Positions 30,578 to 39,818 of a stretch of DNA of 64,000 bases are shown in pieces. Source of the DNA: Cyclobacteriaceae bacterium (lineage in GTDB: Bacteria > Bacteroidota > Bacteroidia > Cytophagales > Cyclobacteriaceae); assembly GCA_020436125.1 (NCBI GenBank), contig JAGQYK010000007.1, positions 33,788 through 97,787 of the forward strand, read 5' to 3'. Below the pieces are notes generated by a model. The model was not told where the DNA came from and did not search any database. It was given only the letters and a program-made list of their open reading frames with translations. Position numbers and translations under genes: made by a program. Each line of letters starts with the position of its first letter. Within the stretch, counting starts at the first letter, position 1.

Positions 30578-31378
30578 TTGGAACCCTTTGTAGTAAATAT
30601 TCCCAAGGAATCCAGAGTTCCTATTTTGCTCAGCTCACCACATAGTGGTATTGCATTTCCTAATGAATTGACGGAGGAATATAAGAAGGAACTTATTTCG
30701 CAACCAAATGACACCGACTGGTTTGTGGATAAGTTGTATGATTTTGCCCCTGCTATGGGCATCACTACTATAAGTGCAGTTTATAGCAGGTGGGTTATTG
30801 ATTTGAATAGGGACCCTGAAAGTAAACCGCTCTATACGGATGGTAGAATAATTACGGCACTTTGTCCAACAACCAATTTTTTTGGCAATTTGATTTATAG
30901 TGACGGCCGAACTGAGGTGGCTCAGGAGGAAGTTGAGAGAAGAGTAAAAGCATATTATAATCCCTATCACGATAAGGTGGGAGAATTGTTACTCGATTTA
31001 AAAAATCAGTTTGGTAAAGTGCTTCTGTGGGATTGTCATTCCATACGACAATTTGTTCCAACTATTCACAAAGAAAAATTCCCTGATCTTATTCTTGGAG
31101 ATGCCGATGGCACTTCCGCTTCACCCGGATTGATTGAGGCAGCGATAGGTGGATTGGAAGATTCTAATTATCAGGTCAACCATAACCATCCATTTAAGGG
31201 AGGATACATCACGCGTTATTTTGGTAGGCCTTCGGAAAACCAGCACGCTTTGCAACTCGAAATGAGTAAGGTGAAATACATGAATGATGAAGAGCTTCAG
31301 TATGATCCGAAGAGAGCTGAAGAAGTACGCAGGGTTTTGAAAAATACTTTTGAAAGATTAATTGATGTACTCGAATAA
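30578..31378 (+). CDS. hutG: N-formylglutamate amidohydrolase
   Basis: A 266-residue cytoplasmic hydrolase turning N-formylglutamate into formate and glutamate, last step of the histidine degradation branch that uses HutF. Family motifs are LLSSPHSGIAFP (metal-binding His), NDTDWFVDKLYDF, SRWVIDLNRDPES and LLWDCHSIR. The start is a TTG at 30578, immediately after the TAA of the GH3 gene; no ATG lies close. HutF follows after 1 bp. hutH, hutU and hutI are not in the window. Confidence 0.9.
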   Translation: MEPFVVNIPKESRVPILLSSPHSGIAFPNELTEEYKKELISQPNDTDWFVDKLYDFAPAMGITTISAVYSRWVIDLNRDPESKPLYTDGRIITALCPTTNFFGNLIYSDGRTEVAQEEVERRVKAYYNPYHDKVGELLLDLKNQFGKVLLWDCHSIRQFVPTIHKEKFPDLILGDADGTSASPGLIEAAIGGLEDSNYQVNHNHPFKGGYITRYFGRPSENQHALQLEMSKVKYMNDEELQYDPKRAEEVRRVLKNTFERLIDVLE

Positions 31379-31379
31379 A

Positions 31380-33203
31380 ATGGACTCGAATCAGGGAAGT
31401 TGGTCAACGGATAAATCTCCGGGTGCAATACTTGGCTTTGCCAGAGAGATGAGAAAAAATCCGACTGAGGCTGAAAATTTGTTATGGGAGAATCTTCGTA
31501 ACAAAAAGTTAGGAGGGTTAAAGTTTCGAAGACAGCAACCTATGGAGGGGTTTATTCTTGATTTTTATTGTCATGAGGTAAAATTGGGTGTTGAAGTACA
31601 TGGGCCTGACCACCATAAAACCGAACAAAAGAAATATGATGAACTTCGGACATCTTATTTGGAAGAATTCGGAATTGAGATAATTCGATTTTCGAATGAA
31701 GAAGTAACACAAACAATGAGAAATGTTTTAGGGAAGATACGGGAAGTGACAAAGAGAAAGTTAGAAGAAAGCCCCTCTCCCCGACCTCGTTCCTCGGTCA
31801 CCCCTCTCCCTGGGGAGAGGGGAGGGGGTGAGGGACTTACCTACTTCAAATTAAAAGGGCTTCTTCAAAGAGATCAGTGGATAAGCCCTGCTTTTGTAGG
31901 CGTTGATAATTCGGGGATAATAAAATATTTATCAAGTACTTCTCCTTCAGATGGTTTTGCCATGGATACCGTGGATGGATATGCTATACCGGGGTTTCAA
32001 AATGCTCATTCTCATGCTTTTCAGTATGGGATGGCGGGGCTTGCTGAAAATCACCCCATGGGAACCAGAGATGATTTCTGGTCATGGCGAGAGGCGATGT
32101 ATCAATGTGCACTTTCTGTTGATCCGGATCAGGCAGAGGCTATTGCAACTATGCTTTACTCAGAAATGGTGCGTCATGGTTATACACAGGTGGCAGAGTT
32201 TCATTACCTTCATCATGATAAGGAGGGTCACCATTATAACAATCTGGCTGAGTTAGGCGAACGTATGGTGGCAGCTGCCCAAAGAGCAGGAATAAAGATC
32301 ACACTGGTTCCTGTTTTTTATCAGAAGGGAACATTTGGTAAGGAACCACAACCTCGTCAGAGGAGATTCATTTCAAAATCAGTGGATGAGTACCTTCAAC
32401 TTTTCGAAGCTTCAAAAAAAGTAATTAAACATTATAATGATGCTTCTTTAGCTTTCAGCATCCATTCATTGCGGGCTGTGGATTTAAATGATATCATTAA
32501 AACAATTGAACACATGCCCTCTGATTTGCCGTTTCATATTCATGTGGCAGAACAGAAAAAGGAAGTAGCAGATTGTATTGATCATTGTGGTAAGCGTCCT
32601 ATGCAGTGGGTGTTGGATCACCTTTCTGTAGATGAAAGATTCCACTTAGTTCATTCTACTCATTTGGATGATGATGAATTATCGAGGTTAGCAAAGTCAG
32701 GAGCAAGTGTCGTATTGTGTCCTTCAACAGAAGGTAATTTGGGAGATGGTATTTTTAGGATGAAAGAGTTTGTGAAACTGGGAGGCAGATGGTCGATTGG
32801 AACGGATAGTCATATCGGTATTAATCCATTGGAAGAATTCAGAATGATAGATTACCGGCAAAGATTGGTGAGTAATGAAAGAAATACGTTTGACGGAGAT
32901 GCAGCACATTATATGATCAATGAGGAAGTTGTTTCCGGGCGAAAGGCAATGGGAATTAATTCTATTGACAATTTTGAAATAGGGAAACCGTTTGATGCAC
33001 TCATATTTAATGCTAAGTCTCCGCTGGTGTCAGCAACCTCACTTAAAAACCTCGTATCTACAATCGTTTATTCTGCCGATTCAAATTACAATTTGGGGAC
33101 CATAATCAATGGAAGGTGGGTTGTGAAAAACAACAAGCATAGGAATGAAGAAGCAATTAGAAATAGTTTCACACTCGCGCTTCAGCAGATGAAGAACCGT
33201 TAA
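31380..33203 (+). CDS. hutF: Fusion: DUF559 nuclease-like domain + formimidoylglutamate deiminase HutF
   Basis: A 607-residue protein in three parts. Residues 15-125 are a DUF559 (Vsr/PD-(D/E)XK-like) domain: MRKNPTEAENLLWENLR, GLKFRRQQPMEGFILDFYC, KLGVEVHG, FGIEIIRFSNEEV. The usual ELDG is VEVHG here. Residues 130-153 are a linker read from a GC-rich repeat. From residue 155 (YFKLKGLLQ) the HutF amidohydrolase runs full length: NAHSHAFQ, HIHVAEQ, LVHSTHLDD and GTDSHIGINPLEE supply metal and substrate ligands. HutF converts N-formiminoglutamate to N-formylglutamate, the HutG substrate. No in-frame ATG, GTG or TTG sits at the HutF junction, so HutF should be made only as a fusion. Confidence 0.88.
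   Translation: MDSNQGSWSTDKSPGAILGFAREMRKNPTEAENLLWENLRNKKLGGLKFRRQQPMEGFILDFYCHEVKLGVEVHGPDHHKTEQKKYDELRTSYLEEFGIEIIRFSNEEVTQTMRNVLGKIREVTKRKLEESPSPRPRSSVTPLPGERGGGEGLTYFKLKGLLQRDQWISPAFVGVDNSGIIKYLSSTSPSDGFAMDTVDGYAIPGFQNAHSHAFQYGMAGLAENHPMGTRDDFWSWREAMYQCALSVDPDQAEAIATMLYSEMVRHGYTQVAEFHYLHHDKEGHHYNNLAELGERMVAAAQRAGIKITLVPVFYQKGTFGKEPQPRQRRFISKSVDEYLQLFEASKKVIKHYNDASLAFSIHSLRAVDLNDIIKTIEHMPSDLPFHIHVAEQKKEVADCIDHCGKRPMQWVLDHLSVDERFHLVHSTHLDDDELSRLAKSGASVVLCPSTEGNLGDGIFRMKEFVKLGGRWSIGTDSHIGINPLEEFRMIDYRQRLVSNERNTFDGDAAHYMINEEVVSGRKAMGINSIDNFEIGKPFDALIFNAKSPLVSATSLKNLVSTIVYSADSNYNLGTIINGRWVVKNNKHRNEEAIRNSFTLALQQMKNR
31770..31835. repeat. GC-rich palindromic repeat inside the DUF559-HutF gene
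   Basis: CCCCTCTCCC (31801-31810), TG, then GGGAGAGGGG (31813-31822) is a perfect inverted repeat, with further C-rich (CCCCTCTCCCCGACCTCG) and G-rich (AGGGGGTGAGGG) flanks. Similar CCCTCTCC/GGAGAGGG repeats are, from memory, found beside DUF559 genes in unrelated genomes. Translated in frame it gives SPSPRPRSSVTPLPGERGG. Confidence 0.75.
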
Positions 33204-33373: not shown

Positions 33374-36300
33374 ATGAGAAAATTCTATCTACTTGCAGGT
33401 ATCCTCATGCTATCTGTAAGTCTTGTCTATGCGCAAAGAAAGCAAAAAAAGGCTCCTGCACAGCCTGCGCAAAGCACCCTTGATGCAGATTTGTATAAAG
33501 GGCTAAAGTGGCGAAACATTGGCCCTTACCGAGGTGGTAGGTCCAATGCTATTTCTGGAGTGGTTAATAACAACATGGTCTATTATACTGGCTATACAGG
33601 AGGAGGAGTTTGGAAAACAGAAAATGCAGGCGCTTCGTGGAAGAATATTTCTGATGGTTTTTTTAAGTCAGGTTCAGTAGGCGAAATCGCTATTTCTGAG
33701 TCTGATCCCAATGTTATTTATGTGGGAATGGGCGAGCATGCTGTTCGGGGCGTGATGACTACCTATGGAGACGGTGTTTATAAGTCTACCGATGCCGGGG
33801 CCACATGGAAGAACATGGGACTGGAGAAAACAAGACATATTTCTGAGATCGCAGTTCACCCAACAAACCCTGATGTTGTGCTAGTAGGCGCACAGGGGGC
33901 TGTTCATGGACCAAGTTCAGACAGAGGTGTTTATAAGTCGGTTGACGGAGGCGCTACCTGGAAGCGTACTTTGTATGTAGATGAGAACACGGGGGTATCA
34001 AGTCTTAATATGGACATGAATAACCCAAGAATATTGTATGCGGCTACTTGGGACCATAGACGTCTTCCCTGGAAAGTAGTGAGTGGAGGCCCTGGATCAG
34101 CCTTATGGAAATCTACGGACGGAGGAGATACTTGGAAAAAAATTGTTGAAGGTCTTCCAAAAGAATTGGGAAAGATGGGAGTTGCTGTGTCACGCGCCAA
34201 TTCCAACAGAGTGTATGCTATTGTAGAAACCGAAAAATCAAAATCTGGTCTTTACCGTTCTGATGACGGAGGCAATAAGTGGACCTTGTTGAGCAACAAT
34301 CAGGATATTAGTTCACGTTCATGGTACTACATGGAAGTATTCCCTGATCCAATTAACGAAGACATCGTGTATGTGTTAAATGCACCAGTGATGCGTTCTA
34401 TTGATGGAGGTAAAAACTTCTCAAGGGTATCAGTAGGTCATGGCGACACCCATGATTTATGGATTAACCCTAAGGATAACAACAATATGATATTGGGAGA
34501 CGATGGTGGAGGAGAAATTACTTTTAATCGCGGAGATACTTGGAGTACTCAGGGTAACCAGCCCACTGCTCAGTTTTATAGAGTTGCTGTTGACAATGTG
34601 TTCCCTTACAATGTATATGGAGGACAGCAGGATAATTCTTCAGTTGTAATTGCGAGCAGAACTAATTCAGCAGGTATTACAGAAAGAGATTGGTTCAATG
34701 GACCAGGCTGTGAAAGTGCATTTATCGTATTTGATCCAGAGAATCCTGAAAAACTAATGGGTGGATGTTACCAGGGAAATATTGATGTGTTGGATATTAA
34801 CACGGGAGAATCAAAAGACGTAAGAGAAGATCCCGCTACCTACCTGGCCTATGAGGCAAAGGATATGAAATACAGATTCAATTGGAATGCTCCGATTGTT
34901 TCATCCATTCAGGACAAGAACACGATTTATCATGCTGGTAATGTGGTTTTCAAGTCTACAGATTGGGGACAAAGCTGGGTTGAGATAAGCCCTGATTTGA
35001 CGAGAAATGAAGAAGCGAAACAAGGTGTAGGTGGTGGACCATTTACCAATGAAGGAGCAGGTGGAGAAAATTATAACACCATCAGTTACCTTGCAGTATC
35101 ACCTCATGAGAAGGATGTAATTTATACTGGTAGTGATTGTGGATTGGTTCACGTGACCAGAGATGGTGGTAAGAACTGGGAAAATATAACTCCTCCGGGA
35201 GTTCCTGAGTCTTTGGTTAGTTCAATTGAGGTTTCGCCATTTGACAAAGGCACTGCATATGTTGCGATTACTCGTTATAAGTTCAATGACTTCAGCAACA
35301 TGGCTTACAAGACTACCGATTATGGTAAAACGTGGACTAAGTTAGGTGGTGGTGTTGATCAGGATGATTTTATTAAAGTGGTCAGAGAGGATAAAAAAGT
35401 AAAAGACTTGTTATATGCAGGGTCAGAAAGAGGATTTTATATTTCTTATAACGGTGGGAGCTCATGGAGTAAATTCCAACTCAATCTGCCAGTGGTTCCT
35501 ATCACTGATTTAGTAATTCATGATAATGACTTGGTGGCTGCTACACAAGGCCGGGCATTTTGGATACTGGATGATTTAGGAGCAATACAACAATCAAAAG
35601 GAAAGTTTGGAGAAGAGAAGGTGAAATTATATACACCTAAACCTACTTATCGTTTGACGAGCTTTTCTCCATCATGGATGTCATTGCCTCCCAACGTAGG
35701 ACAAAATCCTATGAATGGTGTTATCCTTGATTATTATTTGAAGGAAAAAGCAGACTCTAATGTAGTGTCACTTCAAATTCAAGATTTGAGTGGTAATACC
35801 ATCAGGTCATATAGCAATATCAAAGACAAAAACTTCAAACCCTATCCTGGTGGCCCCCCTGCACCGCAGATTATACCAGCTGAAGCTGGCATTAATCGAT
35901 TTGCCTGGGATTTTCGTTATGAAACCATCAAAGATGTTCCTAATGCTTTTGTTTACGGAAGTTATAATGGTCATCGTGTAGGACCAGGTCGTTACAAGGC
36001 GGTGATTTCTTATGGAGGAGAAACTTCTTCTGTAGAATTTGAAGTTATTCCTGATCCAAGAGTGAAAGCAACAGCAGCGCAATGGGCAGAACAGCAGCAA
36101 TTTCTAACAGAGGTAGAATCTACCATTGAGGATATTCACGGCTCCATTAATTCGATAAGAGAAGTGAAAAAGCAAGTAGCATTGCATAATGAAGTATTGA
36201 AATCTAAAGACGATGCCAAAGAAGTGGTGGAGGCTGGAGAGCAATTACTAAAAAAGATCGAATCGTGGGAGTCAAACGTGATTGAGACAAGGCAAAAGAA

Positions 36301-36556
36301 TGGACAAGATGTGATCAATTGGCCAAGTAAACTGAATGCTGAATTTTTCCAACTATTGGGCGTAGCCGATTCACACGATCCAGTGTTGACAAAAGGAGTA
36401 AAAGACCGAAGACAGGAGATTGAAAGTCAATGGTCTAATCGTAAGCAGGAGATTCAGCAGTTGATTGATAAGGATATAGCTGCTTATAATGAGATGTTTA
36501 AATCTGAAAACATTCCTGCTGTTGTGGTGAAGAAGAAGGATCCTGAAAAAATGTGA
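33374..36556 (+). CDS. Exported sortilin/BNR-propeller protein, copy 1
   Basis: A 1060-residue exported protein with signal peptide 1-20 (ending VYAQ). Most of residues 45-760 is BNR/VPS10-type propeller: TENAGASWKNISDG, STDAGATWKNMG, SVDGGATWKRT, STDGGDTWKK, SDDGGNKWT, TRDGGKNWENITPPG, TTDYGKTWTKL, SYNGGSSWSKFQLNLP. The conserved opening WRNIGPYRGGRSNAISGV and the block YGGQQDNSSV recur in copy 2. A beta-sandwich (about 790-900) and a helical C-terminus end it. No T9SS sorting domain is seen. Often labelled glycosyl hydrolase, but no catalytic residues can be assigned. Confidence 0.85.
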   Translation: MRKFYLLAGILMLSVSLVYAQRKQKKAPAQPAQSTLDADLYKGLKWRNIGPYRGGRSNAISGVVNNNMVYYTGYTGGGVWKTENAGASWKNISDGFFKSGSVGEIAISESDPNVIYVGMGEHAVRGVMTTYGDGVYKSTDAGATWKNMGLEKTRHISEIAVHPTNPDVVLVGAQGAVHGPSSDRGVYKSVDGGATWKRTLYVDENTGVSSLNMDMNNPRILYAATWDHRRLPWKVVSGGPGSALWKSTDGGDTWKKIVEGLPKELGKMGVAVSRANSNRVYAIVETEKSKSGLYRSDDGGNKWTLLSNNQDISSRSWYYMEVFPDPINEDIVYVLNAPVMRSIDGGKNFSRVSVGHGDTHDLWINPKDNNNMILGDDGGGEITFNRGDTWSTQGNQPTAQFYRVAVDNVFPYNVYGGQQDNSSVVIASRTNSAGITERDWFNGPGCESAFIVFDPENPEKLMGGCYQGNIDVLDINTGESKDVREDPATYLAYEAKDMKYRFNWNAPIVSSIQDKNTIYHAGNVVFKSTDWGQSWVEISPDLTRNEEAKQGVGGGPFTNEGAGGENYNTISYLAVSPHEKDVIYTGSDCGLVHVTRDGGKNWENITPPGVPESLVSSIEVSPFDKGTAYVAITRYKFNDFSNMAYKTTDYGKTWTKLGGGVDQDDFIKVVREDKKVKDLLYAGSERGFYISYNGGSSWSKFQLNLPVVPITDLVIHDNDLVAATQGRAFWILDDLGAIQQSKGKFGEEKVKLYTPKPTYRLTSFSPSWMSLPPNVGQNPMNGVILDYYLKEKADSNVVSLQIQDLSGNTIRSYSNIKDKNFKPYPGGPPAPQIIPAEAGINRFAWDFRYETIKDVPNAFVYGSYNGHRVGPGRYKAVISYGGETSSVEFEVIPDPRVKATAAQWAEQQQFLTEVESTIEDIHGSINSIREVKKQVALHNEVLKSKDDAKEVVEAGEQLLKKIESWESNVIETRQKNGQDVINWPSKLNAEFFQLLGVADSHDPVLTKGVKDRRQEIESQWSNRKQEIQQLIDKDIAAYNEMFKSENIPAVVVKKKDPEKM

Positions 36557-36594
36557 TGTTTTAAGTATGATCAATTTGTTTAATAAATAATTTT

Positions 36595-36626
36595 AAAGAG
36601 GCTGCCTGAGTAAGGCGGCCTCTTTT
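36595..36626 (+). terminator. Terminator between the two BNR genes
   Basis: AAAGAGGCTGCCT (36595-36607) pairs with AGGCGGCCTCTTT (36613-36625) with one G-U pair, followed by T. It separates the paralogues, so each is probably its own transcription unit. Confidence 0.85.
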
Positions 36627-36656
36627 ATATAACCCTAACCCAAAATTCTTTATACC

Positions 36657-39600
36657 ATGCGAGTTAAATTTTTGATTCTATTTGTGTTAGCGATACTCGT
36701 AACGGAGAGCGCTTCGGCACAGCGAAAAAAGGGAAATGCCGTTTCAAGTAATTCCAGTGCAACCCTTACATTTAATCAAGAGTATTATGAAGGTGTGCAG
36801 TGGCGAGAGCTCGGACCCTTTAGAGGTGGAAGGTCGGTGACTGTAACGGGCGTGGTAGGTGATCCGAATACGTATTACTTTGGAGGTGTTGGAGGAGGTG
36901 TTTGGAAAAGTGTGGATGCTGGGCAAACGTGGTTTAACATCACTGACAAGTATTTTGGAGGGACCATTGGAGCAGTGGCCGTTGCTGAGAGTGACCCCAA
37001 TATTATTTATGTGGGTGAGGGAGAGCAAGGGGTGAGAAGCAACGTGTCTTCTGGGTGGGGTGTTTGGAAAAGCATGGATGCTGGAACAACGTGGAAACAC
37101 ATTGGACTAAAAGACTCAAAGCATATTGGAAGGATAAGAATTCATCCTAAGAATCCAGACTTGGTGTATGTGGCAGCAATGGGAAATTTATGGAAACCCA
37201 ATGACATGCGCGGAGTATATAGAAGTAAAGATGGAGGAGCTACCTGGGAACGAGTTTTGTTCATCAATGACAAGGCGGGCGCAGTCGACCTAACATTCGA
37301 CCCTAACAATGCACGCATTCTTTATGCAAGTACCTGGAACATTAAGCGCAACGGATACAGAATGGACAGCGGTGGACCCGATTCTAAATTGTGGAAAAGT
37401 ACGGACGGTGGCGATACCTGGGATGAGTTAACAGATAATCCGGGAATGCCTGAGGGGCCTAATGGAATTATTGGCGTAGCAGTCTCACCGGTCAACTCTA
37501 ATCGAGTTTGGACTATCATTGAAAATACTAAGGGAGGCGTCTATAGGTCAGATGATGCAGGCGCTACCTGGAAAAAAGTTAACGAAGACAGAGCGCTACG
37601 TCAGCGTGCCTGGTACTATACTCGAATCACCGCGGACACTCAAAATGAAGATAAAGTGTGGGTGATGAATGTGAGTTATGGGGTTTCAAAAGATGGAGGT
37701 GTTTCGTTCGAATTGAAGAATGCGCCCCACGGTGATCATCATGATTTATGGATTGATCCGAACAATAACCAGCGAATGATTATTGCCGATGACGGAGGTG
37801 CGCAAGTATCTAACGATGGCGGAGAAAACTGGACTACCTATCACAACCAACCCACTGCTCAGTTCTACAGAGTTTCAACTGACAATCATTTTCCTTATAG
37901 GATTTATGGCGCGCAGCAGGATAATTCAAGTGTTCGAATCAACCATCGTGGTAATGGTGTAGCCATTACTGAAAGCGATTGGATTGCACTGGCATTGGGT
38001 GAAAGTGCGCATGTAGCCCCTGACCCATTGAACAACAACATTATTTATGGTGGCGGTTACAAAGGATACATGAATATGGAGAACCTGGAAACTGGCCAGG
38101 AGAGATCCACCAACGTATGGCCTGATCTACCAGCAGGTTCTGGAGCTGAAGTAATGAAGTATCGTTTTAATTGGAATTATCCAGTGGTGTTCAGCACACA
38201 TAATCCAAAGAAATTATATGCAGGGTCAAATCACCTTCATGCAACTACAAACGGAGGCCAAAGCTGGGAAGTAATTAGCCCTGACCTTACTCGTAACGAT
38301 CCAGAAACCATTAAGTCTTCTGGTGGACCGATCACGCAAGACAATACCGGGGCTGAATATTACGCCAATATTTTTGTGATCACCGAATCACCTTATACAG
38401 AAAATGAAATATGGACTGGTTCTGATGATGGCTTGATTTATTTGACCCAGGATGGTGGAAAGACATGGAACAATGTGACGCCCCCAATGGCGCCTAAGAA
38501 TAACATGATGAACAGTATTGATGTAAATCCTTTTGTAAAAGGAGGCGCTTATGTGGTGGGTACTTCATATAAATTTGGAGACAATAAGCCTTACATCTAT
38601 AAAACAGATGACTATGGTAAAACCTGGTCGTTGATTACGAAAGGTATTCCAGATGAGGAATATGTAAGAGTAGTAAGGGCCGATCAAAAGAGGAAAGGTT
38701 TATTATACGCTGGAACAGAAAAAGGAATGTGGGTGTCGTTTGACGATGGAGCTAGTTGGTCAAAGTTTCAGTTAAACCTTCCGCCAGTTCCTATTCATGA
38801 TCTGGCAGTAAAGAATGATAACCTGATAGCAGCTACTCATGGAAGAAGCTTTTGGATGATCGATGATCTTACTCCACTACAGCAATTGTCTAAAGAGATT
38901 GAAACTAAAAAGTCACACCTTTTTCAACCTATGCCCACTTATAGAATGGCTGGTGGATCTGGATGGGGAAGACCCGATAGAAGATTGGAGGGAGAGAACC
39001 ACCCTAATGGAGTAATGATGCATTATTATGTATCCTCCATTGATGAAAATAGTGATGTGTCTATTGATGTGATGGAAATGGACGGAAATATTATTCAAAC
39101 ATTTTCTAACAAATCGAAGGATCGCGGCACACAATTGAAAGTAAACAAAGGAGGAAATAGATTTGTATGGAATATGCGCTACCCTGGTTACAAAACGTTC
39201 CCGGGTCTTGTGTTTTACTCATCTCCTAATATTGGACCGAAAGCAGTACCGGGGAAATACAAGGCGAGGTTAACCGTGAACGGACAGGTAACTGAACAAG
39301 AATTTGAAATAATTAAAGATCCGCGAGTGACAACAACACAACAGGAGTTTCAAGATCAATTTGATTTTCTTTCTAAAGTAAGAGATAAAGTGAGTGATGC
39401 TCATCAGGGTATTCTGGACATCAGAAGGATAAAGACGGATTTGAATTATGTAAAAACAAAAGTAGAGGACAAGCCGGAGAATAAGAATTTGTTGGATGTG
39501 ATGAAAGATTTTCAAAATGAACTGACAGTCATAGAAAACAATATTCATCAGACTAAAAATGAAGCAAGTCAAGACCCCTTGAACTTTGGTGTTAAGCTCA

Positions 39601-39818
39601 ACAACAGATTGGCATTTCTAATGTACGAGCAAGGTACAGGAGATTTTCCTCCAACTCAACAAGCAGAACAAGTTCGTGTAGAACTTTCAAATCAAATTGA
39701 TGGTGAATTGAAAAAACTAGATGCTTTGATCGATAGCAATGTATCTACTATTAATGAAATGATAAAGGAGAAAGGCATTGAGATGGTAATGATTAAGAAG
39801 GAACCGGCTAAAATGTAA
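36657..39818 (+). CDS. Exported sortilin/BNR-propeller protein, copy 2
   Basis: A 1053-residue paralogue of the preceding gene with the same order of parts: signal peptide 1-21, opening WRELGPFRGGRSVTVTGV, repeated BNR motifs (SVDAGQTWF, SMDAGTTWKHIGLK, SKDGGATWERV, STDGGDTWDE, SDDAGATWKKV, TQDGGKTWNNVTPP), block YGAQQDNSSVRI, and a helical C-terminal segment rich in Lys and Asp. The two copies align along their whole length but are clearly diverged, so the duplication is not recent. Possible roles include binding peptides or other proteins at the cell surface; a secreted S10 peptidase gene follows after 18 bp. Confidence 0.85.
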   Translation: MRVKFLILFVLAILVTESASAQRKKGNAVSSNSSATLTFNQEYYEGVQWRELGPFRGGRSVTVTGVVGDPNTYYFGGVGGGVWKSVDAGQTWFNITDKYFGGTIGAVAVAESDPNIIYVGEGEQGVRSNVSSGWGVWKSMDAGTTWKHIGLKDSKHIGRIRIHPKNPDLVYVAAMGNLWKPNDMRGVYRSKDGGATWERVLFINDKAGAVDLTFDPNNARILYASTWNIKRNGYRMDSGGPDSKLWKSTDGGDTWDELTDNPGMPEGPNGIIGVAVSPVNSNRVWTIIENTKGGVYRSDDAGATWKKVNEDRALRQRAWYYTRITADTQNEDKVWVMNVSYGVSKDGGVSFELKNAPHGDHHDLWIDPNNNQRMIIADDGGAQVSNDGGENWTTYHNQPTAQFYRVSTDNHFPYRIYGAQQDNSSVRINHRGNGVAITESDWIALALGESAHVAPDPLNNNIIYGGGYKGYMNMENLETGQERSTNVWPDLPAGSGAEVMKYRFNWNYPVVFSTHNPKKLYAGSNHLHATTNGGQSWEVISPDLTRNDPETIKSSGGPITQDNTGAEYYANIFVITESPYTENEIWTGSDDGLIYLTQDGGKTWNNVTPPMAPKNNMMNSIDVNPFVKGGAYVVGTSYKFGDNKPYIYKTDDYGKTWSLITKGIPDEEYVRVVRADQKRKGLLYAGTEKGMWVSFDDGASWSKFQLNLPPVPIHDLAVKNDNLIAATHGRSFWMIDDLTPLQQLSKEIETKKSHLFQPMPTYRMAGGSGWGRPDRRLEGENHPNGVMMHYYVSSIDENSDVSIDVMEMDGNIIQTFSNKSKDRGTQLKVNKGGNRFVWNMRYPGYKTFPGLVFYSSPNIGPKAVPGKYKARLTVNGQVTEQEFEIIKDPRVTTTQQEFQDQFDFLSKVRDKVSDAHQGILDIRRIKTDLNYVKTKVEDKPENKNLLDVMKDFQNELTVIENNIHQTKNEASQDPLNFGVKLNNRLAFLMYEQGTGDFPPTQQAEQVRVELSNQIDGELKKLDALIDSNVSTINEMIKEKGIEMVMIKKEPAKM

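Follow-up and report, generated by a model that had tools for sequence, protein, structure and literature searches.

Why a nuclease domain should be read as the first part of a histidine-degrading enzyme is the question raised by a 64,000 bp stretch of DNA (the window) from a Cyclobacteriaceae bacterium (contig JAGQYK010000007.1, positions 33,788 to 97,787 of the forward strand). Within it, a DUF559 (Vsr-like) nuclease domain is joined in frame to HutF, formimidoylglutamate deiminase, and an earlier note, made from the DNA letters alone, proposed that a mobile unit had been inserted between hutG and hutF and had captured hutF expression. Having compared the locus with its relatives and with DUF559 copies elsewhere, we consider with reasonable confidence that DUF559 and the repeats around it belong to a nuclease-driven, non-splicing mobile element that is tolerated in frame. 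The finding at hutF is real and opens onto a larger one, namely nuclease elements with BoxC-type ends that settle in frame in essential genes and that, we infer from comparison of sequences, move.

The fused reading frame

The fused frame (31380..33203, + strand) is free of stops and encodes 607 aa from an ATG at 31380, or 613 aa should translation start at a TTG at 31362. It begins one base after the TAA stop codon of its upstream neighbour hutG (30578..31378, +), which encodes N-formylglutamate deformylase. The DUF559 domain covers residues 20–123 (31437..31748, +; PF04480, E 5e-32) with a profile score of 110.5 bits, which is above the cut-off of 20.6, and the HutF part, residues 159–605, matches TIGR02022 at 476.9 bits, again above the cut-off (413). 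Hence, the in-frame fusion described in the earlier note stands. That note had HutF begin at codon 155, which is close, as homology runs onward from LTYFK at about codon 153 (hutF, 31836..33203, +). It had also stated that HutF lacks a start of its own at the junction, and no ATG, GTG or TTG is found in frame between codon 123 (GTG) and codon 195 (ATG). The capture of hutF expression is upheld insofar as hutF is read from starts inside the element, with the qualification that a shorter HutF could possibly start at either of two codons within DUF559, the ATG of codon 113 (31716..31718, +) or the GTG of codon 123 (at 31746, +).

The join is formed by the putative right terminal repeat of the element (31772..31835, +; edges set by eye), which ends in GGTGAGGGA and is read as the in-frame linker ..SPSPRPRSSVTPLPGERGGGEG. 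The palindromic core of this repeat, CCCCTCTCCCTGGGGAGAGGGG at 31801..31822 (+), is of the BoxC or triplex-motif type. No second site was found in the window at up to 3 mismatches, shuffled sequences giving an expectation of 0. The genome from which the window comes has one DUF559 and six such palindromes at ≤3 mismatches, compared with none in a reversed control; three of the six lie no more than about 230 bases from a contig start (C156:156, C196:209 and C46:20), as if the assembly broke there. The stability of the hairpin at the join is not unusual for its composition (z -1.2) and was therefore dropped as evidence, the support being sequence, position and recurrence.

Of the 114 copies of DUF559 that were aligned, all have D40, E51 and G54 of the D..ExDG..H motif, and 113 have D53 and H57. 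The odd one at the motif Asp is the window copy, in which codon 74 (31599..31601, +) is CAT and encodes His, and with this replacement the active site is probably dead. The left terminal inverted repeat of the window copy was not found by inverted-repeat scoring or by comparison of ends, and only the right end is left. Because the left repeat is missing and the ExDG..H motif carries a D to H change, the copy is probably no longer self-spreading, and it is best regarded as a decayed element, a fossil of its family. That the remnant stays in frame fits retention for carrying the hutF start.

The hutG–hutF site in relatives

The fused protein was used to search 96 genomes, its own included, of which 70 gave matches, and 50 hutF loci were taken. 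Junctions could be read in 49 of these, including the window (L048, in which the HutF start is cut, was dropped). DUF559 lies between hutG and hutF in ten of the 49. In three (L002, the window, L003 and L006) it is fused in frame to HutF, so that the fused frame is open in three species; in two (L008 and L044) it is read through from HutG; and in five (L007, L011, L012, L037 and L054) it is separate, with a hairpin repeat on either side of DUF559 in L007. In L007, L008, L011 and L012, the repeat is within the open HutF frame at its start and DUF559 is in another frame. In the remaining loci, apart from those described next, either only a few bases separate hutG from hutF and no trace of an insertion is seen, or hutF has no adjacent hutG. 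An insertion between hutG and hutF, as the earlier note supposed, is thus what these loci look like, with empty sites in relatives and a fusion that is not universal.

The sequence GAGGGA, which forms the repeat end, stands directly 5' of the conserved HutF start in nine of the 49 loci, and three of these nine (L004, L010 and L026) showed no DUF559 within the sequence that was read. The most informative of these is L004 (genome G027), the closest relative lacking DUF559, whose HutF is 82 % identical to that of the window, begins MDNNSLHKAWSADKITESVEGLTYFK and is joined in frame at the GAGGGA end. This beginning seems to be a DUF559 start of the window type (MDSNQGSWSTDK..) that an in-frame deletion has brought directly before EGLTYFK. 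As L004 keeps the DUF559 start without DUF559, hutF in its lineage would already have relied on the element's start codon. In L017, a DUF559 tail stands in frame before HutF and has a Met at the place of window codon 113. With empty, separate, HutF-fused, HutG-fused, deleted and scar states all represented among relatives, the site appears to be an old one.

Ends and structure of the element

Comparison of copies indicates that the intact element is about 440–730 bp long and consists of a DUF559 gene between hairpin terminal inverted repeats, with the start CCTCACCCC and the end GGGGTGAGG. In filled RecB genes, the left end is GCCTCACCCCCCGGCCCCCTCTCC...GGAGAGGGGGAGCC and the right end is close to its reverse complement. 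Terminal inverted repeats scored above the best of 2,240 shuffles in 76 of 112 copies (67 of 91 in long frames and 9 of 21 in short ones), two of the 114 copies having been left out for their short flanks. The repeat at the join, which the earlier note had likened to those of free-standing DUF559 genes, is hence part of the DUF559 unit. The strongest individual indication that the unit moves as a whole comes from the LeuRS genes of two species, where insertions at aa 354 (L071) and aa 594 (L183) share a 465-column unit, from repeat to repeat, that is 79 % identical, and the local alignment stops at the unit ends.

Repeat pairs without a nuclease gene also occur. Twenty, of 106–357 bp, were found in 20 fetched loci (none in one locus and two in another), and one of these loci (L359) also has a DUF559 beside the pair. 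The flanks outside these pairs (L347-L366) are often complementary, in L357 at 15 of 15 bases. At 8 bp, 88 of 160 flank positions were complementary, compared with a permuted mean of 52.7 and a largest value of 78 among 5,000 permutations. Because the element end, or else a shared motif, recurs in several of the flanks, the complementarity may represent a longer end rather than a palindromic target. Elsewhere, six palindromes of the same type stand in a row about 124 bp apart (G056:C128:7053-7697), forming a tandem array, and a nuclease-free repeat at L181:1075-1094 is read in frame near residue 226 of a 980 aa frame, in the manner of a Rickettsia palindromic element.

No Rfam match was obtained for five loci, and no protein-splicing domain was among the Pfam matches (E ≤1e-10) of 16 open reading frames (ORFs), for which no dedicated intein search was made. 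Plasmids or phages are unlikely to be the main vehicle, as relatives of a single query were found in 38 of 72,556 plasmid records, several of them chromosome-sized, and in 3 of 50,697 phage records.

DUF559 inside host genes

DUF559 was found in 148 of the 291 genomes of the order surveyed, in at least 150 frames; among the matches listed, 59 frames were ≥350 aa, 90 were ≤230 aa and one was 265 aa. In a set of 91 DUF559 ORFs chosen for a length of ≥350 aa and clustered after masking DUF559, 17 groups were obtained, one of them a hostless DUF559 tandem, so that further in-frame fusions, which the earlier note had anticipated, are common. The largest groups are LeuRS (33), MetH (10) and a PurQ-like amidotransferase (10, with DUF559 at the C-terminal end), followed by IleRS (6), QueG (5), RecQ (4) and a RecB/UvrD-like group (4), DUF559 being N-terminal in both QueG and RecQ. 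Smaller groups are HutF (3), Eco57I-type restriction–modification proteins (3), HsdR-type proteins (3), an AddB-like nuclease (2), HutG (2) and HsdM (2), and there are single cases of MutS, an HsdS-like protein (L094) and a methylase-like protein (L077), the last two named by eye. Representatives of leuS, metH, ileS, queG, recQ and mutS were confirmed with hidden Markov models (HMMs), which also named MM-CoA mutase, RecG, OMP decarboxylase (PyrF), TruB, guanylate kinase, GcpE (IspG) and MetRS as hosts and matched HsdM, HsdR, Eco57I, GATase_5, UvrD, PDDEXK_1 and FGase among the host ORFs; hosts beyond the HMM-named representatives were named by similarity. Two MetH frames (L131 and L163) are open with two DUF559 insertions each.

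LeuRS gave one strong match in each of 85 of the 96 genomes, and in 24 of those 85 it has DUF559 inside (23 are in the LeuRS cluster and the other, G061, has a divergent DUF559 copy, L202). In a search of named genomes, 74 of the best 80 of at least 557 matches were in frames ≥250 aa, 52 of them LeuRS, though the query was mostly LeuRS-derived and these shares are biased upward. The same best 80 matches include DUF559 inserted in LeuRS of Ca. Nomurabacteria and Paceibacterota and one PyrF in Dehalococcoidia. The earlier note spoke of survival within an essential reading frame. HutF is catabolic and not known to be essential, and LeuRS carries the idea better.

Empty and filled sites could be compared directly in several hosts. 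Between the motifs WIGKS.G and FTTRPDT, LeuRS has 15–24 residues in 21 insert-free genes versus 156–193 in 20 filled ones, and 35–46 in three genes where the insert consists of no more than a short repeat-coded stretch; loci with missing end motifs (10 of 33 filled and 9 of 30 compared LeuRS loci) were dropped. One of these 30, L202, proved to carry a DUF559 itself, the divergent copy noted above. Within one genus, the linker of a RecB-like gene is 21–30 nt in 25 fetched genomes versus 513–732 nt in five. In two further genomes (G383 and G409), the hit tables place DUF559 between two RecB frames, so the reading frame can be broken where the host gene may be dispensable. At the recQ site of two species (L086 and L173), the element plus recQ start are 84 % identical, and in one there is a stop before recQ while the other is fused. 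The E. coli DUF559 gene ycjD (L373:2908-3261) is variable, a match over ≥80 % of the query being present in 3,364 of 5,426 genomes. It was tried as a clean empty site and rejected, as the four genomes without ycjD that were read have other genes beside fabI.

Selection, descent and predicted structure

The ratio of non-synonymous to synonymous substitution (dN/dS) was 0.01–0.19 in the 14 pairs, of 18, that were measurable, in nine of which both copies are inserted or fused; the other four pairs, the window pair among them, were saturated. With the motif also kept, inserted copies are therefore not simply dying. In a tree of the 114 copies, those from the hutF site lie together, with the exception of L037 and L054. 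The trees of LeuRS hosts and of their inserts (17 taxa) reject each other, with log-likelihood differences (dlnL) of 214–292, clearly larger than those of the two LeuRS halves against each other (78–100), and the conflict between host and insert at the hutF site is weaker, with dlnL of 59 and 28 (9 taxa). We take these results to mean that the element has probably resided at the site for a long time and has undergone some transfer there.

An AlphaFold2 model of a LeuRS with its insert (L247; 28 sequences) has a mean predicted local distance difference test score (pLDDT) of 80. The DUF559 blocks at 341–450 score 76–88, and the repeat-coded linkers at 302–337 and 455–464 score <50, as do 86–88 and 836–846. 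The LeuRS fold is kept in this model, which matches solved LeuRS structures with TM-scores, by target, of 0.71–0.85 among the 50 matches listed. P, S, G, E and R make up 49 % of linker residues versus 29 % in the host parts.

Repeat abundance and DUF559

In 120 genomes of one genus, there were 3,644 matches to the end sequence on both strands, with 0–4 per strand and genome in a reversed control. Repeat number rises with the number of DUF559 copies (rho 0.54, kinship being ignored), from a median of 4 repeats with no DUF559 to 87 with six copies, and the 17 genomes of the genus without DUF559 still have 0 to 69 repeats. Across the order, a generic palindrome was found in 90 of 148 genomes with DUF559 versus 21 of 143 without it (odds ratio 9.0, again ignoring kinship), and the totals were 1,900 versus 83 palindromes. 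When the family that holds the 120-genome genus (f13) was removed, the odds ratio was 6.3.

Origin of the fusion and alternative explanations

We propose that an ancestor would have acquired an element at the hutG/hutF boundary, that the hutF start would have been removed or displaced and new start codons supplied by the element, and that hutF would then have been read as a DUF559-repeat-HutF fusion. More generally, such elements could settle in reading frames because their GC-rich repeats can be read through as Pro/Ser/Gly/Glu-rich linkers, predicted to be disordered, on which host enzyme and nuclease would fold as separate domains, while selection would remove out-of-frame insertions in essential genes. 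The nuclease, made within the host protein or free, may cut or nick repeats or empty sites, repair or recombination may then copy the unit, and nuclease-free derivatives may spread in trans. The anatomy, in-frame insertion, empty sites, the unit at two positions, the differing histories and the tracking of DUF559 by repeats all emerge from comparison of sequences; that DUF559 does the moving, and how, we infer. The self-spreading unit of the earlier note is thus supported at the level of the family, by its anatomy and the two-position unit, with movement deduced from comparison, and does not extend to the window copy, which is decayed.

Several observations weigh against this reading. In 36 of the 112 scored copies, that of the window included, terminal repeats were not above shuffles, and a flank-swap control gave a median of 9.5 and a 95 % point of 22.8 compared with a real median of 20.5, the ranges overlapping because loci share end sequences. 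No target-site duplication of >4 nt flanks the 20 nuclease-free pairs. Near-identical DUF559 copies were not found within a genome, the best pair being 74 % identical in amino acids in a sample of 63 of the copies present in 21 genomes, and a recent burst of full elements is not seen. The 114-copy tree clusters by host site, with 38 label changes compared with a shuffled mean of 80.7, and copies at one site are probably in good part inherited vertically. The two halves of LeuRS also reject each other (dlnL 78–100), and part of the LeuRS incongruence may therefore be recombination or model error. Lastly, some genomes have the palindrome despite having no DUF559, and the correlations between the two ignore kinship.

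These points bear on two other accounts of the family. DUF559 could be a useful nucleic-acid-binding or repair domain recruited by hosts, with the repeats as mere linkers or rearrangement hot spots. The purifying selection and conserved active site are in keeping with this, as is the presence among the hosts of several proteins of DNA repair or restriction (RecB-like, RecQ, RecG, MutS and Hsd), and the accessible part of one report ties the DUF559 protein VsrA to DNA damage in Caulobacter (PMC12907096). However, LeuRS, MetH, HutF, PyrF, TruB and IspG have no DNA role, the insertion positions differ within one host (MetH, and LeuRS near 340 and near 600), and there are siblings without DUF559, scars and abundant nuclease-free repeat copies, all of which makes recruitment improbable. 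It is slightly less improbable, though still unlikely, that DUF559 is a passenger or beneficiary and that another enzyme, or plain recombination between hairpin repeats, moves the repeats. The 21 of 143 genomes that have the palindrome and no DUF559 could be explained in this way, and triplex-type repeats have been tied to instability with no known enzyme, according to the section of the source available (PMC4666352). Against it, two data sets show more repeats where there is more DUF559, and in the second this still holds after removal of the family of the first; 113 of 114 copies retain the catalytic residues.

At the window itself, HutF might be made separately from the ATG of codon 113 or the GTG of codon 123, the fusion being only an open frame. 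Two in-frame starts do lie inside DUF559, and the DUF559 tail before HutF in L017 keeps a Met at the codon 113 place. On the other side, G027 seems to keep the DUF559 start codon in its in-frame deletion join to HutF, the fused frame is open in three species, and the product of an internal start would also start inside the element. We regard separate synthesis as a minority possibility, the likeliest of the alternatives set out here. That the fusion is an artefact of assembly or sequencing could be suspected from the draft state of the genome (216 contigs), but full-length fused frames at this site in other genomes (G018 and G007) already largely refute it, and its probability is negligible.

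If the proposed mobile element is as we describe it, selfish DNA would have a route to persistence that requires no splicing, namely becoming a translated part of an indispensable gene. This would explain the nuclease domain in LeuRS, MetH, RecB-like and other proteins of Bacteroidota and in LeuRS of some Paceibacterota and Nomurabacteria. Insertion, fusion, decay and scar are all represented among the loci as a natural series, and protein engineers gain a catalogue of loops that can accommodate an insert of 150 residues. Downstream of the fused frame, at 33374-39818 of the window, two adjacent ORFs of 1060 and 1053 aa resemble paralogues and have, by eye, repeated beta-propeller-like motifs.

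Comparison with known systems

The element ends share their plan, CCCTCTCCC-loop-GGGAGAGGG-GGGGTGAGGG, with the BoxC repeats, also known as PIT or 'intrastrand triplex motif' (TM) repeats, for which the part of the account available gives 23 in E. coli K-12 and an occurrence in >260 genomes (Holder et al. 2015, PMC4666352). When positions 31801-31835 of the window were read against Table 1 of that source, a C/T-rich arm, a G/A-rich arm and a third, G-rich arm of the GGGGTGAGGG type were all present. The E. coli TM repeats are intergenic in the same available text, whereas here the repeats stand on both sides of DUF559, occur in frame within genes and form outward-facing inverted pairs; of the five pairs in the K-12 table, four face inward, unlike those described here. 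In K-12, ycjD ends at 1,351,407 and TM number 9 occupies 1,351,204-1,351,239, which is 167 bp away and matches the element right end in side and orientation, but with one of 23 sites involved the link is suggestive only. As far as the available text goes, its authors state that mobility activities (transposases, integrases) were never found around the E. coli sites (PMC4666352), and the DUF559 element would give these repeats a testable origin.

Among the published titles and beginnings of abstracts that were screened, we found no prior account of DUF559 with such repeats or in housekeeping genes. A likeness to REPIN/RAYT systems is apparent in the sources available in part, as both have abundant hairpin repeats and a rarer nuclease-type gene, though REPs are named as extragenic there, unlike the in-frame repeats here. 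RAYTs are tyrosine (HuH) transposases, unlike DUF559, which is PD-(D/E)XK-like. Also different from the elements here are DDE-type transposons, for which a target-site duplication would be expected, no duplication of >4 nt being seen at the 20 nuclease-free pairs. EDxHD or Vsr-like homing endonucleases and inteins likewise place a nuclease in a conserved host gene, judging from the accessible parts of two reports (PMC3943268, PMC9403480), one of which assigns a DUF559 gene to the EDxHD homing family (PMC9403480). DUF559 gave a weak match (E 0.07) to 3r3p, 'Mobile intron protein'. A splicing part, such as inteins have, was not seen among the Pfam matches mentioned above; the inserted domain seems to remain within the protein, and terminal inverted repeats are present.

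Rickettsia palindromic elements, compared here by description, are the nearest known in-frame palindromes. Like the repeats here, they are palindromic, translatable and found in frame in unrelated genes, and they are about 150 bp long, with no nuclease gene mentioned in the portion of the source available (PMC10969869). We suggest tentatively, and with less conviction than for the in-frame mobile element itself, that DUF559 with ends of the BoxC or triplex type may form a separate class, a non-splicing in-frame homing element of loops and linkers in essential single-copy enzymes. Such an element would add a folded domain on disordered, repeat-coded tethers, would move between species at the same site, and could be the missing mobiliser of BoxC/TM repeats across bacteria, E. 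coli included.

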